DNA of 64,000 nt from NCBI GenBank assembly GCA_913020295.1, contig CAJWAA010000003.1, positions 62,001-126,000 of the forward strand, read 5' to 3'. This stretch comes from an uncultured Flavobacteriaceae bacterium. Lineage in GTDB: Bacteria > Bacteroidota > Bacteroidia > Flavobacteriales > Flavobacteriaceae. How positions within the stretch are numbered: the first letter of the stretch is position 1; each line of letters starts with the position of its first letter. The notes beneath the pieces were generated by a model. The model searched no databases. It was not told where the DNA came from and saw only the letters and a list, made by a program, of their open reading frames with translations. Below are positions 25,992 through 40,430 of the stretch, piece by piece. A program made the position numbers and the translations under genes.

Positions 25992-26490
25992 TTTTATCTT
26001 TAAATAGTCCTAAGGAAATGTAAACAAATACAAAAGTAAATAAAGATGAAAAAATAGTGTTTTTTATAATGGTAAGGGTATTGGTAAAACTAAAATAAAT
26101 AACACTGTAAAGAACTAAATGGTGAATCAATATGATTATTAACATATAGACTAATCTTTGAGAAAATGGACTTCCCTTAATCATTCCCATAGGTAGATCG
26201 TAATTTACACCAAAAGAAAATTTAACAATGAATGGCCTTAAGAACGCAATTGTCAATGTAGCGATAGTATGGCCTCCTGATCCTTGAGTCAACAGATCGA
26301 GTAGCAGGCCAAGGACAAAGCCCAATAAAATTAATATTGTGGAATTTCCATCCAGTCGATAGATGATAATGAACAAAATGTAGAGGTTCGGATTGATATA
26401 CCCAAAAAAATTAATGTTATTCAGCAAAAAAGACTGAAGAAATAGAAGCAGAAAGAATTGAAAAACTACAATTAGGTTATCTCGGTTCAT
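25984..26490 (-). CDS. mreD: Rod-shape-determining protein MreD
   Basis: 168-residue hydrophobic inner-membrane protein with five or six predicted helices (NLIVVFQFFLLLFLQSFLL, LYILFIIIYRLDG, ILLGFVLGLLLDLLTQGSGGH and later ones). The LGLLLDLL-x-QGSGGH segment is the recognisable MreD element, with Asp and Gly after the third helix. It links MreC to the PBP2/RodA pair. Its position between mreC (14-bp overlap) and mrdA (8-bp overlap) is the strongest evidence, since MreD sequences diverge greatly. Confidence 0.88.
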   Translation of the reverse strand: MNRDNLIVVFQFFLLLFLQSFLLNNINFFGYINPNLYILFIIIYRLDGNSTILILLGFVLGLLLDLLTQGSGGHTIATLTIAFLRPFIVKFSFGVNYDLPMGMIKGSPFSQRLVYMLIIILIHHLVLYSVIYFSFTNTLTIIKNTIFSSLFTFVFVYISLGLFKDKND

Positions 26491-27289
26491 TTTTCAATCT
26501 ATTAAGTTGTTCTTTTTTTTTGTTTTTCAAAACGTAGACAAATTCTTTTTGGGTAAAATTGCTAAACAGTTCAATATCAATATCGTAGTATCCTTCGAGT
26601 TCAGGTTTTTTAAAATCAATGACTTTACCAATTGGAATGCCACGAGGAAAATAATCTGACATCCCACCGGTTACTATAGTATCCCCAACTTCCACTGAAT
26701 TTAGGGTAGAAACATCGTTGAGTTTCATTTTTTTAGGATGATTCCCTTGCCATGATAAAGATCCATAAGCACCATTTTTTTTAAAACCTGCATTAATTTT
26801 TAGATCTAGGTGTAAAATGGAAATCACACTTGAAAAATTGGCAGTGACCTGATTGACAATACCCATTATACCATCACTGGTTATTACTCCCATTTCAACC
26901 TCTATACCGTCTTGATTTCCTTTATCAATGATCAAGTAATTTCTTGCGCGATTATAACTGTTTTTGATTATTCTAGCTCCAAAAACCTGAAATTTGAAAG
27001 TTTCAATTACATTTTTTTCAATAGACTTTTCATCAAAATGAATTAATTCAAATACTTTGAGTTTAGCATTTTCAATAAATAGTTTTTCATTGGTACTAGC
27101 AAGACGTATGTAATTTGATGTATTTCTCCCAAACTGATTCAAGTTGCTTGAAATGGCAAGGGATATTTTACTGAAAATTGATTGATGATAAAAACTTCGG
27201 TGATTTAAAAAAATAATCGAAACTATAAATAACCCCGTATATAAAATGGTATTTCTGTACCTAAGTAGAGCATTGATGAGCTGACGCAT
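26477..27289 (-). CDS. mreC: Rod-shape-determining protein MreC
   Basis: 270-residue bitopic periplasmic scaffold of the elongasome. It has a short cytoplasmic N-terminus, one helix (TILYTGLFIVSIIFLNH), a coiled-coil segment around residues 60-95 (STNEKLFIENAKLKVFELI), and the beta-barrel domain with ARNYLIIDKGNQDGIEVEMGVI, DGIMGIVNQVTANFSSVISILH and GDTIVTGGMSDYFPRGIPIGKV, the last being the family's best-conserved stretch. Its C-terminus is Lys/Asn rich. It follows mreB by 6 bases. Identification is firm from motif and order. Confidence 0.94.
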   Translation of the reverse strand: MRQLINALLRYRNTILYTGLFIVSIIFLNHRSFYHQSIFSKISLAISSNLNQFGRNTSNYIRLASTNEKLFIENAKLKVFELIHFDEKSIEKNVIETFKFQVFGARIIKNSYNRARNYLIIDKGNQDGIEVEMGVITSDGIMGIVNQVTANFSSVISILHLDLKINAGFKKNGAYGSLSWQGNHPKKMKLNDVSTLNSVEVGDTIVTGGMSDYFPRGIPIGKVIDFKKPELEGYYDIDIELFSNFTQKEFVYVLKNKKKEQLNRLKNEPR

Positions 27290-33903: not shown

Positions 33904-35553
<1,650 letters not shown>

Positions 35554-35556
35554 CTA

Positions 35557-35835
35557 TTAAACAATTGCTAATATGTCACTTTCTCTCATAATCATGTAAT
35601 CTGCTCCATCGTGTTGAAGCTCGGTTCCAGCATATTTACCATATAGGACATGATCCCCCACTTTGACTGTTACAGGGTTTTCAGAGGTTCCAGGGCCGAC
35701 AGCGACCACGATCCCTTTTTGAGGTTTTTCTTTTGCGGAATCAGGAATGATGATTCCTGAAGAGGTTTTGGTTTCTGCAGCAGCAGGTTCAATTAAAACT
35801 CTATCTGCCAGAGGCTTAATATTTACTTTACTCAT
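35557..35835 (-). CDS. groES: Co-chaperonin GroES
   Basis: 92-residue lid protein of the chaperonin. It shows [36 protein letters not shown], in which the mobile loop is T-x-S-S-G-I-I-I-P-D, then [14 protein letters not shown] and [17 protein letters not shown]. All family motifs are present. It is the first gene of the groESL unit. The ATG lies about 35 bases downstream of a strong -24-type element, with no CIRCE (TTAGCACTC-N9-GAGTGCTAA) in the region, so HrcA control is not supported. The upstream neighbour, secG, is on the same strand 107 bp away. Confidence 0.98.
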
Positions 35836-35861
35836 TGTTAATTTTTTTAGTTAAATCAAAT

Positions 35862-35880
35862 ATTTCACAAATCGTGCCAA
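35862..35880 (-). promoter_or_regulatory. Sigma-54-like promoter of groESL
   Basis: On the minus strand, TTGGCACGATTTGTGAA holds a perfect -24 element (YTGGCACG) with GG followed, 10 bases later, by GA, where the textbook -12 has GC. The spacing is right and only the -12 base choice is loose. Bacteroidota sigma-54 promoters often show a T-rich, GA- or GT-ended -12. Three TGTCA boxes and a palindrome lie just upstream. Confidence 0.55.
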
Positions 35881-35891
35881 GAACAAAGGCA

Positions 35892-35935
35892 TGACAAAAT
35901 TTTAGCAATACAGCACAAGTGCTGACATCATGACA
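35892..35935 (-). promoter_or_regulatory. TGTCA repeats and palindrome upstream of groESL
   Basis: On the minus strand three TGTCA boxes occur (complements of 35892-35896, 35923-35927 and 35931-35935), two of them exactly 8 bases apart. Next to them is a perfect 14-bp palindrome CAGCACTTGTGCTG (35911-35924). These could bind an activator. They are closer to the promoter than classical sigma-54 enhancers, and function is inferred. Confidence 0.45.
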
Positions 35936-35942
35936 CAAAAAA

Positions 35943-36287
35943 CTATTCTGGAGGATTTTCTTGTGGTATTTCTGGGAGTGTTTCAGGAATTACTTCAGGA
36001 ATAGGCTGCTCCAAAGTGTTGTCTTGCAATAAGCGGGAATCAGAACTCTCACTGCTGGTTCCCAGCGAAATGTTAGATAGTAAGATAAGTACCAATAAAA
36101 GTCCAGCAAGCAACCATGTGCTTCGGTCCAAAAAGTCAGAAGTCCTTTGGACACCTCCCATTTGTTGTCCGCCTCCACCAAAGGACGAAGAAAGTCCTCC
36201 ACCCTTTGGGTTTTGAACCATTACTACTAAAACGAGTAAAAAACACACAAAAATGATCAATGCAATAAAAATCGAAAAGCTTCCCAT
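35943..36287 (-). CDS. secG: Preprotein translocase subunit SecG
   Basis: 114-residue membrane component that assists SecYEG export. Two hydrophobic segments (FSIFIALIIFVCFLLVLVVMVQNPKGGGLSS and STWLLAGLLLVLILLSNIS) flank the canonical loop with QNPKGGGLSSSFGGGGQQMGGVQRTSDFLDR, which is the SecG signature. The C-terminal tail is acidic and Pro/Glu rich (QEN, PEVIPETLPEIPQ), typical for Bacteroidota. It lies 6 bases after the TPR gene and 107 bp before groES. Whether it shares transcripts with groESL is unclear because a promoter precedes groES. Confidence 0.93.
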   Translation of the reverse strand: MGSFSIFIALIIFVCFLLVLVVMVQNPKGGGLSSSFGGGGQQMGGVQRTSDFLDRSTWLLAGLLLVLILLSNISLGTSSESSDSRLLQDNTLEQPIPEVIPETLPEIPQENPPE

Positions 36288-36293
36288 AATGTA

Positions 36294-37118
36294 TTATTTT
36301 TGTTGCAGTTTTCTAATTTCCTGAATTTTCCCTGCAAAGAAAACATTTTTTTCCGGATATTTCAAACTTAAAATCTTGTAGGCACTTATGGCCTTTTTGT
36401 ATTTTTTTTGTTTAACCAAAACTTTGGCTAAAGTTTCTGTCATTAGTTCATTGGAGTAGAAGTCTTCTTCTAATGAGTAATTACTAGATTCGTTTTTTCC
36501 TACTGGTGGGATTTTAGGGTTGGCTTTAAGAAATCGATCTATAATATAAATTTTGTCACTTAGCGGTCCAGCTTTCTCAGCTTCTTTTGATAGGGGTGTC
36601 TGCTTTTGTTTTTCCTGTGTGAACTGAATCCAATCCAGAAAATTTAGTTTTATATCAACCGAGGGAGGGCTTGATTTCCTAGATTGGGGTACTGATTTTT
36701 TTGTTTCTGTTTTATTTTTTTTTGTCTTTTTAACTTTGATTTCTCCTGTATGAATTGGTGTCTTTCTACTCTGAGATTGTTTATCTCTCCGTAAACCTAA
36801 TTTAGACTCTATTTTTGACTCATTGGTATCTTTAATAGTTGTTTCAACATTTTTAATTTCTGATTTTATTTTTTTTTGGTGCTGATATTTAGATTCTATA
36901 TTTTGTTTAATTATGCTCCTATCAGCAGTATATAGTGCCAATTGATTTAGGGCCGTATCAACATCATTTTTGTTTTGGTCTTTCAAAGACTTAGCATAAA
37001 AAAAACGGGGAAGCTGGAAATAGGGATACTTTTCGATCAACAATGCCATTTTAGAAATCAATATTTCATCATGGGAGTTATAGTTTTGTATCAAATTGTC
37101 TAATATTTCTCTATTCAT
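36294..37118 (-). CDS. Tetratricopeptide-like protein, Lys-rich, unknown function
   Basis: 274 residues. Helical N-terminus with ILISKMALLIEKYPYFQLPRFFYAKSL, a strongly basic low-complexity middle (about 110-165, many Lys, Ser and Thr), and a C-terminal TPR-like pair (ETLAKVLVKQKKYKKAISAYKILSLKYPEKNVFFAGKIQEI). No signal peptide or membrane helix, so probably cytoplasmic. Start choice: GTG at 37130 or ATG at 37118; ATG is preferred because it does not overlap lptE and begins the natural N-terminus MNREIL. This gene type is common between lptE and secG in flavobacteria, but I know of no assigned function. Confidence 0.7.
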   Translation of the reverse strand: MNREILDNLIQNYNSHDEILISKMALLIEKYPYFQLPRFFYAKSLKDQNKNDVDTALNQLALYTADRSIIKQNIESKYQHQKKIKSEIKNVETTIKDTNESKIESKLGLRRDKQSQSRKTPIHTGEIKVKKTKKNKTETKKSVPQSRKSSPPSVDIKLNFLDWIQFTQEKQKQTPLSKEAEKAGPLSDKIYIIDRFLKANPKIPPVGKNESSNYSLEEDFYSNELMTETLAKVLVKQKKYKKAISAYKILSLKYPEKNVFFAGKIQEIRKLQQK

Positions 37119-37123
37119 AAGGT

Positions 37124-37651
37124 TTACCACTTGGCTAGTGTTTCGTTAAATATGTCTTGTGTAATTCTAACGAAGATTTCGTCATGTGCTGGGCCCTGAA
37201 TATCATAAAGTTGTTTTTCTGCGGCAAAGTCATAAAAGAAAGAAAATTTTTTTTCGAAATCATCATCCTCATTATTGGTATTGAAAAAGCGAAGGTTAAC
37301 ACTCATGGTTAGCCTGTTCTGAGCAGCAGTAAGATTAGCGGTTGATGTCATCGGAGTGATGCTATACTGAGTAATTTCTCCCTCATAAACTAAATCACCT
37401 CCTGAATTAACTAAGTTTAAATTGGTCTGTCCCAAGATAATATCTTGAAGAGCTAAGGTAAAATCTCTATCCAAGCCTGGTTCAACAGTAGACCCTGGTC
37501 TACTACCTGCTTGATTTTCAAAAAAATTGACCTGAAAAGTCGATGCTCCAGCAGGAATGGATGCTCCGGTAAATGAGTAAATACCGCAGGCTTTAATACA
37601 CAGGAGTAAAATTAAAAAGATACCAATAGATAATCTATTCACTCTCGTCAT
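37124..37651 (-). CDS. lptE: LptE family LPS-assembly lipoprotein
   Basis: 175-residue outer-membrane lipoprotein that plugs the LptD barrel and helps insert LPS. The N-terminal hydrophobic run ends in a lipobox-like I-K-A-C-G (Cys22). GIYSFTGASIPAGASTFQVNFFENQAG is the recognisable Bacteroidota LptE opening, followed by a strand-rich body (LVYEGEITQYSITPMTSTANLTAAQNRLTMSVNLRF) and a helical end with DIFNETLAKW. It overlaps the sigma-54 activator gene by 17 bases, so the two are translationally linked. An LptC homologue is at 8557-9144, consistent with a working transport chain. Confidence 0.87.
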   Translation of the reverse strand: MTRVNRLSIGIFLILLLCIKACGIYSFTGASIPAGASTFQVNFFENQAGSRPGSTVEPGLDRDFTLALQDIILGQTNLNLVNSGGDLVYEGEITQYSITPMTSTANLTAAQNRLTMSVNLRFFNTNNEDDDFEKKFSFFYDFAAEKQLYDIQGPAHDEIFVRITQDIFNETLAKW

Positions 37652-38897
37652 CTTGCAAATCGAATTGTTTGATTTTTCGATAGAGGGTTCTTTCTGATAT
37701 GCCCAATTCTTGGGCCGCTATTTTCCTCTTTCCATTACTTCTTTTTAGGGCCTGCTTTATCATTTCAATTTCTTTCTCCAATAAAGATAAAGGTTCCTCT
37801 TCAATTACCGTTTCAGCATAATCGTATTGGTTAATTGGAGGAGCGGTTTTGTGGCTTACAGAGCTACTTTCCGGACTAATGAATTCAACGGTTTTATTTT
37901 CGTTGTCCGATTCACCATATATTTTTTTTATAAGTTCGGGGTTATTTTTTTGAACTGATGAAACACTCTCATTTTCCATTAATTCATAGGTGAGTTTTTT
38001 CAAATCATTGAGATCGTTCTTCATATCAAATAGAACTTTGTAGAGGATTTCTCTTTCTGAAGAAAAGTCAGCTTCTTTTTCTGAGTGATCAATGACAGCC
38101 GGAAGTTGAGATCCTAAATGGGGCAGATAATTTCTGAGGGTCTTGGAATTGAGCGTTCTGTTTTTTTCCAAAACAGAGACCTGTTCAGCAATGTTTCTTA
38201 GCTGACGGATATTTCCACCCCATCGGTATTGCTCCAAAATTCGTTGAGCATCGTCATCCAATCTCAAGGCGGGCATTTTGTATTTTTGCGCAAAATCCGA
38301 GGCAAATTTTCTGAACAGAAGTTGAATATCCTCTTTTCTCTCCCTCAGTGGAGGTAGGTGAATTTCTACGGTACTTAGACGATAATAGAGGTCCTCTCTG
38401 AATTTACTTTTTTTAATAGCTTCATTCATTTTGATATTGGTTGCAGCAACTATTCTTACATCTGTTTTTTGAACTTTAGAGGAACCTACTTTCAAAAATT
38501 CGCCATTTTCTAATATTCTCAGAAGCCTTACTTGTGTCGGCAAGGGAAGTTCTCCTACTTCGTCAAGAAAAATCGTTCCGCCATCGGCAACCTCAAAATA
38601 ACCACTTCTTGTGCTTGTGGCCCCAGTAAAAGCCCCTTTTTCGTGACCAAAAAGCTCACTGTCAATAGTTCCCTCTGGGATTGCACCACAGTTTACGGCA
38701 ATGTATTTGGCGTGTTTTCTGGGAGAAAATTGATGAATTATTTTAGGAATATTTTCTTTTCCTACTCCACTTTCACCAGTTACCAGAACGGTAATTTCGG
38801 TTGCAGATACCCTCAAGGCTTTTTCCAAAGCTCTATTCAGGCCGTCATAATTACCTATTATTCCAAAACGCTGTTTGATGTTTTGTAGTGATTCCAT
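37635..38897 (-). CDS. Sigma-54 interaction transcriptional activator (no receiver domain)
   Basis: 420-residue AAA+ enhancer-binding protein that remodels sigma-54 RNA polymerase. It starts almost directly with the AAA+ core: Walker A GESGVGKE at 41-48, the sigma-54 contact loop GAFTGA at 88-93, Walker B GGTIFLDE at 106-113, and the sensor/arginine-finger region REDLYYRLSTVEIHLPPLRER. The C-terminal Fis-type helix-turn-helix (IKQALKRSNGKRKIAAQELGISERTLYRKIKQF) binds DNA. A linker with DMKNDLNDLKKLTYEL sits between. No N-terminal response-regulator, GAF or PAS domain is present, so activity may be set by amount or a partner protein. It overlaps lptE by 17 bases. Confidence 0.92.
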   Translation of the reverse strand: MESLQNIKQRFGIIGNYDGLNRALEKALRVSATEITVLVTGESGVGKENIPKIIHQFSPRKHAKYIAVNCGAIPEGTIDSELFGHEKGAFTGATSTRSGYFEVADGGTIFLDEVGELPLPTQVRLLRILENGEFLKVGSSKVQKTDVRIVAATNIKMNEAIKKSKFREDLYYRLSTVEIHLPPLRERKEDIQLLFRKFASDFAQKYKMPALRLDDDAQRILEQYRWGGNIRQLRNIAEQVSVLEKNRTLNSKTLRNYLPHLGSQLPAVIDHSEKEADFSSEREILYKVLFDMKNDLNDLKKLTYELMENESVSSVQKNNPELIKKIYGESDNENKTVEFISPESSSVSHKTAPPINQYDYAETVIEEEPLSLLEKEIEMIKQALKRSNGKRKIAAQELGISERTLYRKIKQFDLQDDESE

Positions 38898-38901
38898 AAT
38901 A

Positions 38902-40398
38902 TCAGATTGAGGATGAGATTCCTATTGCATTTCCAATTAAGGTGGCAGAGGTCACACCTTTAATTTTGACATCAACAAAATCTCCCACTTTATAATTCTC
39001 TTTTGGAAAAACAGCTACTGTATTCTGGCTTGTTCTCCCACTCCAAAATTCACTGGATCTTTTTGAATTTTTCTCAATTAAAATACAGACTGTTTTGCCA
39101 ATCAACTTTTTGGTTTGGCATTCGCTGTGTATTCTTTGCAAATCGATGATTTCTTGAAGTCTTCTTTTTTTGGTGGATTCTGGAATATCGTCTTCAATTT
39201 TTTTGGCTGCCAATGTACCGGGGCGTTCTGAATAAGCAAACATAAATCCAAAATCATATTTAACATAATCCATTAGGGTAAGTGTGTCTTTATGATCTTT
39301 CTCTGTTTCTGTCGGAAATCCAGCAATCATGTCGTGAGAAATGCCACAATGTGGAATGATCTTACGAATATTTTTGATCAATTCGATATACTGCTCTCGA
39401 CTATGTTGTCGATTCATTTTTTTTAGAATCGTGTTACTTCCGGATTGAACAGGCAGATGGATGTGGTTGCAAATATTGTCGTATTTGGCCATAGTGTGAA
39501 TTACTTCAAGGGACATATCTTGAGGATTAGAAGTAGAAAAACGAATACGCATTTTGGGTTGAGCATTGGCTACTAAATTCAAAAGCATAGCAAAATTAAC
39601 TGCTGTTTTTTGTTGTAATGGACTGGCTTTTGTGAAGTCTTTTTTCAATCCACCCCCATACCACAGGTAGCTGTCGACATTTTGCCCTAATAAGGTAACT
39701 TCTTTGTATCCGTTGTTTACCAATTGACTAATTTCCTCCAATATACTTTTAGGATCCCTGCTTCTTTCTCTACCCCTGGTGAATGGAACTACGCAGAAAG
39801 TACACATATTATCACATCCTCTGGTAATGGTAACAAAAGCACTAACTCCGTTGGTGGCCAATCTCACAGGAGCTATATCACCATAGGTTTCTTCCTTAGA
39901 GAGGACAACGTTTACAGCCTCTCTCCCTGCCCCGGCTTCTCTTAAAAGATTGGGGAGGTCCTTGTAGGCATCTGGTCCAACTACTATATCCACCATTTTT
40001 TCCTCTTCGAGAAATTTATGTTTAAGGCGCTCTGCCATACAACCTAATACTCCAATTTTGAGATCTTTATTCTTACGTTTCAATCCATTGAAAAGCTCTA
40101 GTCTTTTACGAACAGTTTGCTCAGCTTTCTCTCGAATAGAACAGGTATTTAACAATACTAAGTTAGCATCTTCGATATTTTCAGTGATTTTATAACCTTC
40201 TTGATCCAATATGGAAGCAACAATCTCACTATCAGAAAAATTCATTTGACAACCGTAAGATTCTATATAAAAGTGTTTTGGGGTTTTTGACACTGTTTTT
40301 TTTTTATTTAATAAAAAATCAGTTACAGCTAATGATCTATGACCTGTATGGGTTGAGACATTATAAGCTTTTAAATCATTTGTCGATATTTTTCCCAT
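38902..40398 (-). CDS. miaB: tRNA-2-methylthio-N6-dimethylallyladenosine synthase
   Basis: Radical SAM methylthiotransferase acting on i6A37 of tRNAs. 498 residues. The UPF0004 domain gives YGCQMNFSDSEIV, NTCSIREKAEQ and GCMAERLKH, whose three Cys hold the auxiliary cluster. The radical SAM motif C-x3-C-x2-C appears in RGCDNMCTFCVVPFTRGRERS, and the C-terminal TRAM domain in the last 65 residues (LIGKTVCILIEKN through VKGVTSATLIGNAIG region). ATG 40398 (MGKISTND) is chosen over an in-frame TTG at 40425, because a TAnnTTTG promoter box overlaps that TTG. It is 4 bases upstream of the activator gene and probably heads the transcript. Confidence 0.96.
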   Translation of the reverse strand: MGKISTNDLKAYNVSTHTGHRSLAVTDFLLNKKKTVSKTPKHFYIESYGCQMNFSDSEIVASILDQEGYKITENIEDANLVLLNTCSIREKAEQTVRKRLELFNGLKRKNKDLKIGVLGCMAERLKHKFLEEEKMVDIVVGPDAYKDLPNLLREAGAGREAVNVVLSKEETYGDIAPVRLATNGVSAFVTITRGCDNMCTFCVVPFTRGRERSRDPKSILEEISQLVNNGYKEVTLLGQNVDSYLWYGGGLKKDFTKASPLQQKTAVNFAMLLNLVANAQPKMRIRFSTSNPQDMSLEVIHTMAKYDNICNHIHLPVQSGSNTILKKMNRQHSREQYIELIKNIRKIIPHCGISHDMIAGFPTETEKDHKDTLTLMDYVKYDFGFMFAYSERPGTLAAKKIEDDIPESTKKRRLQEIIDLQRIHSECQTKKLIGKTVCILIEKNSKRSSEFWSGRTSQNTVAVFPKENYKVGDFVDVKIKGVTSATLIGNAIGISSSI

Positions 40399-40422
40399 TA
40401 CATAGTATGTATTATGCTTTCG

Positions 40423-40430
40423 CAAATATA
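40423..40430 (-). promoter_or_regulatory. Probable -7 promoter box of miaB
   Basis: TATATTTG on the minus strand fits TAnnTTTG exactly, 25 bases ahead of ATG 40398. No clear TTTG box lies 17-23 bases upstream. It covers the alternative TTG start, which argues against that start. Confidence 0.45.

Follow-up and report, generated by a model that had tools for sequence, protein, structure and literature searches.

A conserved sigma-54-type promoter ahead of groES-groEL in Flavobacteriaceae and its likely activator

Which regulatory system controls the chaperonin operon of Flavobacteriaceae? In other classes of the phylum, the groES-groEL operon (groESL) is controlled by repression through HrcA/CIRCE, whereas the first-pass annotation of the locus analyzed here suggested that, in this lineage, sigma-54 acts in place of HrcA, which would imply activation. 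The locus belongs to a 64-kb stretch of DNA from an uncultured Flavobacteriaceae bacterium, hereinafter the window. The absence of CIRCE noted in that annotation held, with no such element in the window when up to 3 mismatches were allowed, and a search of the genome of this bacterium (assembly 91% complete) for hrcA yielded no match. The same genome encodes RpoN (G000:C1:56656-57129). The genes of the conserved neighbourhood are all on one strand, in the following order.

38902..40425, minus strand: miaB-like radical SAM/TRAM gene, for which we assume the name miaB and with which the conserved neighbourhood begins
37635..38897, minus strand: sigma-54 activator gene (domain search)
37124..37651, minus strand: lptE, between the activator gene and secG (domain search)
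36294..37130, minus strand: uncharacterised open reading frame with a GTG start (ORF list), for which Pfam and NCBIfam searched at E 0.001 gave no match
35943..36287, minus strand: secG, the upstream neighbour of groES (domain search)
35557..35835, minus strand: groES (Cpn10; domain search)
33904..35538, minus strand: groEL (Cpn60; domain search)

The gap between secG and groES encompasses 107 bp (minus strand, 35942 to 35836) and reads, 5' to 3', TTTTTTGTGTCATGATGTCAGCACTTGTGCTGTATTGCTAAAATTTTGTCATGCCTTTGTTCTTGGCACGATTTGTGAAATATTTGATTTAACTAAAAAAATTAACA, followed by the ATG of groES. The following elements were delineated in this gap.

35923..35935, minus strand: putative paired activator site TGTCATGATGTCA (TGWCA-N3-TGWCA), centred at about -76 (family conservation)
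35911..35924, minus strand: inverted repeat CAGCACTTGTGCTG, with 6-bp arms and two central bases that are not palindromic
35892..35896, minus strand: proximal single TGTCA box that starts 17 nt upstream of TGGCA
35865..35880, minus strand: -24/-12 sigma-54 promoter TTGGCACGATTTGTGA (reading of the window and conservation)
35853, minus strand: predicted transcription start, placed by sigma-54 geometry 12 nt after the -12 element

The promoter motif reported in the first-pass annotation is present as claimed, with TTGGCACG at 35880-35873 of the minus strand and GA (35866-35865) ten bases after GG (35878-35877). In promoter numbering, GG corresponds to -25/-24 (35878/35877), G to -13 (35866) and A to -12 (35865), so that the predicted start would lie 18 nt upstream of the groES ATG. 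The -12 base of the window promoter is A versus the usual C; C at this position of sigma-54 promoters is strongly preferred without being obligatory, and is found in 28 of the 106 family sites.

Taken alone, the pattern in the window is weak evidence (17 matches to TGGCAYN7G against 9.7 expected), and it is the conservation of the promoter among related genomes that raises it beyond chance. An alignment of groES upstream regions, the check proposed along with the original reading, was built from the 30 best GroES loci of an even draw from the family and the 80 best of a scan of a genome collection, that is, from the nearest GroES relatives rather than a random sample. The 110 upstream regions, the one from the window included, yielded 104 distinct ones once six identical regions were dropped. 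TGGCAY and a G at the -13 spacing are present in all 104 of these regions, which come from Flavobacteriaceae and near kin, and among the 54 columns compared, these are the only invariant bases. The lack of conservation named in the first-pass annotation as grounds for refutation was not observed. An even draw of 60 family genomes provides a less biased check: the composite pattern TGTCA-N11-14-TGGCAYNNTTTNNG was detected in 48 of these genomes, and 48 of its 51 places are just ahead of groES (coordinates compared by eye), versus 2 places for the reversed pattern in the same 60 genomes. In the window itself, the composite TGTCAN{11,14}TGGCAYN7G has 2 matches against 0.03 expected; the second one (26629-26661) falls inside the open reading frame 26477-27289 and probably arose by chance.

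Across the genome of this bacterium, there are 36 matches to TGGCAYNNNTTNNG versus 15 for the reversed pattern; 33 of the 36 are covered by an open frame of at least 90 codons, and the three outside such frames are those at groES, C16:20991 and C1:21612. The last of these sites is doubtful because a looser scan puts it inside a 239-codon stop-free frame. The site at G000:C16:20991-21004 (L271), TTGGCACAGATTTTG, is 89 nt upstream of an open reading frame for a lipoprotein-like product of 344 aa and is a candidate second sigma-54 promoter, with no TGTCA pair in the 75 nt examined.

Upstream of the promoter, all three TGTCA boxes that had been reported are present (minus strand, starting at 35935, 35927 and 35896), but comparison across the family favours reading them as a TGWCA-N3-TGWCA pair and one proximal box. 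Given that TGWCA is symmetric except for its centre, the pair makes a symmetric 13-bp site. Among the 104 family regions, 44 contain the exact paired site (0.0 on average in shuffles) and 87 a site with at most one mismatch (shuffle 1.8); at the 8-bp spacing, there are 20 TGTCA-TGTCA pairs, 16 TGACA-TGACA pairs and 8 mixed ones. In the window, the centre of this site, around -76, is in a usual place for a sigma-54 enhancer. A TGWCA box located 14-19 nt before TGGCA, mostly at 17-18 nt, is present in 84 of the 104 regions (shuffle 1.3); the proximal box, near -41, has an almost fixed spacing to the -24 element and is closer to the promoter than an ordinary sigma-54 enhancer.

The first-pass annotation also pointed to a sigma-54 activator with GAFTGA and a Fis-type HTH about 1.7 kb away, and domain searches bear this out. 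About 1.75 kb separates the promoter from the stop codon of the activator gene, which is on the same strand, and the 420-residue product contains a Sigma54_activat AAA+ domain, the AAA lid and a Fis HTH_8 domain (residues 376-412). With the AAA+ domain, GAFTGA and the Fis HTH, the protein encoded at 37635-38897 is a bacterial enhancer-binding protein, and because the AAA+ domain starts already at residue 13, it lacks an N-terminal sensor domain. An alignment of 59 distinct full-length activators, counting the one from the window, shows high conservation of the AAA+ core and the HTH; 41 of the 59 sequences have GAFTGA exactly, and the 90% column pattern is G.FTGA. The linker of about 100 residues is variable except for one conserved block, 281-300 (EREILYKVLFDMKNDLNDLK). 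The predicted structure is weak (mean pLDDT 60.2, pTM 0.41), with a hint of a helix at residues 277-307.

The architecture of this protein, AAA+ and Fis HTH without an N-terminal sensor domain, is also that of PspF. Assignment of the activator as a PspF equivalog was nevertheless rejected, the score with TIGR02974 being 260.3 bits against a cut-off of 443.55, and the linker of about 100 residues with its single conserved block sets the activator apart from PspF. None of the NCBIfam models passed its cut-off with this protein, those for PrdR, NtrC, NifA and PspF all scoring far below theirs; the best-scoring sequence of solved structure is an NtrC-family regulator (4l4u).

Of the 80 family loci compared (L031-L110), 74 have the activator gene upstream of groES and in the same orientation. 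Among the six others, L031 and L034 are too short to tell, and L081, L102, L103 and L106 have none within 3 kb. In the stretches fetched from more distant relatives, an activator gene was detected near groES in 27 of 40 loci of the order (0 of 6 in family f5), in 8 of 21 loci of other Bacteroidia and in 0 of 19 outside the class, a few of the activator matches counted being partial, at the edge of a stretch. Among the 26 loci without an adjacent activator (13 of 40 in the order and 13 of 21 in other Bacteroidia), 22 keep the promoter pattern.

These more distant loci were picked by hand among the matches listed and are not a random sample. The order set (L149-L188) consists of two Flavobacteriaceae (L187 and L188), four endosymbionts and 34 others. 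The loose promoter pattern TGGYAY-N7-G, which occurs in 1.4% of regions by mononucleotide shuffling, was found within the last 170 nt before groES in 38 of these 40 loci, or in 36 of 38 when the two Flavobacteriaceae are set aside and other Flavobacteriales families are left. The two misses, L168 with nothing similar and L177 with CGGCAC, failed the promoter pattern with the activator gene present. Among other Bacteroidia, 17 of 21 loci have the pattern, and the -24 to -12 spacing is kept while the intervening bases differ, as expected of sigma-54; in none of the four misses (L208, L209, L213 and L215) does the stretch fetched include an adjacent activator. The paired site becomes less frequent with distance: 9 exact matches and 30 with at most one mismatch among the 40 order loci, and 4 and 7, respectively, among the 21 loci of other Bacteroidia.

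Outside the class Bacteroidia, 19 loci were compared, with one groES copy per genome, many of these genomes carrying at least two GroES matches. The HrcA-positive genomes have CIRCE in 10 of 11 loci (the exception is L235) and the sigma-54 pattern in 0 of 11, and the HrcA-negative ones have the sigma-54 pattern in 5 of 8 and CIRCE in 0 of 8. The paired site is absent from the 11 HrcA-positive loci, both as an exact match and with at most one mismatch, and among the 8 HrcA-negative loci, there is no exact match and one with at most one mismatch. Thus, across the 40 loci compared from the phylum, HrcA/CIRCE and the sigma-54 site are mutually exclusive: CIRCE is present in 10 of 11 loci with HrcA versus 0 of 29 without, and the sigma-54 pattern in 0 of 11 with HrcA versus 22 of 29 without, which makes this group a good case for studying the replacement of one mode of control by another. 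Three HrcA-negative loci from another class (L227, L228 and L231) have TTGGTAYGG...TTGC ahead of groES, sites that, at -12, are nearer to the classical sigma-54 consensus than most of those in Flavobacteriaceae.

RpoN is encoded in 149 of 149 family genomes, and HrcA exceeded the cut-off in 0 of the 149, with one weak match below it. In the phylum, HrcA was found in 111 of 198 genomes, namely 0 of 49 Bacteroidia (counted by eye) and 111 of 149 others. RpoN is present in 232 of 246 genomes of the order; of the 14 genomes without a match, 13 have assemblies 52-87% complete, and the last is the 300-kb genome G377 (96%). Together with the promoter in all 104 upstream regions, these counts support the earlier suggestion that sigma-54, rather than HrcA, serves the chaperonin operon, and the comparison of upstream sequences supports extending it beyond this lineage, to Flavobacteriales and most of the sampled Bacteroidia, in which, judging by conservation, a housekeeping chaperonin operon is dependent on sigma-54.

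Within the order, family f16 has reduced genomes (0.3-0.6 Mb), which, from their size and placement, we take to be those of Blattabacterium and relatives. RpoN is encoded in 39 of the 40 f16 genomes, G377 being the exception. A search for PF00158 in 12 f16 genomes identified, in 11 of them, one strong match (217-223 bits), 55-60% identical to the activator of the window, in a gene that stops 331 to 1267 nt upstream of groES; alongside it, three or four weak matches (18-40 bits) occur in each of the 11, in long frames, e.g. ClpB-like ones, and most of these matches exceed the low Pfam cut-off of 20.2. The groES promoter is present in 11 of 11 f16 regions (L149-L152 and L275-L281), as TTGGCATGTTTTTGGC in 9 of the 11 and with GC at -13/-12 in 10; C occupies -12 in 9 of the 10 endosymbiont sites counted, and in L280, the promoter lies 193 nt upstream of the groES start codon. 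Seven of these regions have the exact paired site, and the other 4 have it with one mismatch (L276-L278 judged by eye). In a 345-kb genome (L149), lptE and secG no longer intervene, and the order is miaB-like gene, activator and groES. The retention of promoter, paired site and activator is as expected if RpoN and the activator serve groESL. Six long f16 frames (L283-L287 and L290), presumably clpB judging by length and N-terminal resemblance, have no matching promoter site directly ahead. The one strong PF00158 match of G377 falls on a phage-like 19.6-kb contig, C1, binned with this genome; there, L282:9506-10348 codes for a protein of 280 aa that has a sigma-54 AAA+ domain but gave no match to a Fis HTH, possibly a phage-borne sigma-54 activator.

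The data show a conserved promoter, a conserved paired site, frequent linkage of the activator gene, persistence of these elements in reduced genomes and the absence of HrcA/CIRCE. On the strength of these comparisons, we consider it quite likely that groESL is transcribed by the RpoN polymerase from 35880-35865 and switched on by the activator encoded upstream, acting at the paired site. Under this scenario, the sigma-54 polymerase at the -24/-12 promoter would start transcription of groES-groEL near 35853 and would stay closed until the activator (37635-38897) binds TGWCA-N3-TGWCA near -76, forms an AAA+ ring and uses ATP to remodel sigma-54, presumably in response to protein stress. Because the activator lacks an N-terminal sensor domain, the signal would probably enter via a partner protein, possibly at linker block 281-300, by analogy with PspA, which controls PspF. 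Several observations weigh against the proposed scheme: C is rare at -12 in the family, linkage was not detected in f5 or at many loci of other Bacteroidia, and L168 and L177 lack the pattern while having the activator. Elsewhere, in Bradyrhizobium, one of several groESL copies is under NifA/sigma-54 control and tied to nitrogen fixation; that system resembles the present one in its use of sigma-54 and differs in the number of copies, given the single groES match in the genome analyzed here.

Control of groESL by sigma-54 is already known. According to the part of PMC9723704 available, a sigma-54 (SM4) start has been mapped ahead of groES-groEL in Flavobacterium psychrophilum, like the promoter at this locus, and SM4 starts were also found at lon, dnaK, grpE-dnaJ, htpG and clpB; that part assigns no activator and leaves open the targets of the three PF00158 proteins of this bacterium. 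The aRpoNDB survey (PMC12316311, excerpts) describes predicted sigma-54 promoters in Bacteroidota as enriched for the GroEL, GroES, GrpE, DnaJ and DnaK groups, with the highest enrichment in Flavobacteriia; these are group statistics, and for groESL, the excerpts name neither an activator or its site nor a link to endosymbionts. The reference cited there for B. thetaiotaomicron groES is, as numbered, a Blattabacterium paper. The accessible portions of PMC3372290 and PMC3162934 contain no mention of groE. Among the matches listed by a literature search that covered few subscription journals, there was none on a groESL activator in Bacteroidota or on a link to RpoN in endosymbionts, so that the likely activator, its site and the endosymbiont link seem to be new.

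The last of these bears on a known oddity. In the sections of PMC3971599 at hand, the retention of RpoN by Walczuchella, Uzinura and Blattabacterium is called "unusual in insect endosymbiont genomes" and is tentatively tied to nitrogen, and Sulcia appears, from a table, to be a symbiont that lacks rpoN; groESL as the reason was not found in the texts searched. The likely activator and DNA site named here offer a testable reason. Specifically, f16 symbionts might keep RpoN and one activator mainly, perhaps only, for the transcription of groESL, and the near-constant presence of RpoN in free-living Flavobacteriales might stem in part from the same link, following an ancestral swap of HrcA/CIRCE for sigma-54 via this activator family; we regard the arguments for and against this proposal as about evenly balanced.

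Other readings of the locus have to be weighed against activation of a sigma-54 promoter by the neighbouring gene product. The promoter could be real but served in trans by a different activator, with the neighbour controlling something else and linked to groES only through an old miaB-lptE-secG neighbourhood. In larger genomes, several sigma-54 activators are possible, and therefore linkage alone does not say which of them acts; indeed, F. psychrophilum has three PF00158 proteins and sigma-54 promoters spread over several co-expression clusters (PMC9723704, in the part available), and all six f5 loci retain the promoter although the stretch fetched contains no adjacent activator. However, the only strong PF00158 match in 11 endosymbiont genomes is the neighbouring activator, still near groES, the activator remained adjoining groES after the loss of lptE and secG (L149), and the same paired site recurs at groES promoters, so we consider a trans-acting alternative unlikely.

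The two alternatives that dispense with sigma-54 are less likely still. The Bacteroidetes primary-sigma consensus is TTTG, 19 nt and TANNTTTG, and an overlapping promoter of this type can be read in the window from TTTG at 35887 and AATATTTG at 35864-35857, with both boxes present and a 19-nt spacer. A primary-sigma box that explains the RNA start had been named in the first-pass annotation as grounds for abandoning the sigma-54 reading; such a box is not conserved, TANNTTTG being present in 6 of the 104 regions against 9.0 expected by shuffling and exact AATATTTG in 0 of nine close relatives compared (L031 has AATATTTA, shifted), whereas TGGCAY and the -13 G are invariant, which makes this reading very improbable. 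A promoter for an ECF sigma factor, with TGTCA as the -35 box and TGGCA as the -10 box, is scarcely credible: the recurrence of TGWCA at 14-19 nt, mostly 17-18 nt, before TGGCA in the 84 regions would fit, but this reading implies a spacer of 12-13 nt, which is short for such a promoter, it does not account for the G that is invariant ten bases after GG, and loci from other orders keep the -24/-12 pattern with differing intervening bases.

The 14-bp palindrome listed in the first-pass annotation is present in the window as CAGCACTTGTGCTG at 35924-35911, but none of the nine close relatives compared shows it, and it was rejected as an operator. A terminator-like hairpin was called in the secG-groES gap in 52 of the 104 regions and not in the window, where the repeat is perhaps a decayed secG terminator hairpin, likelier than an operator.
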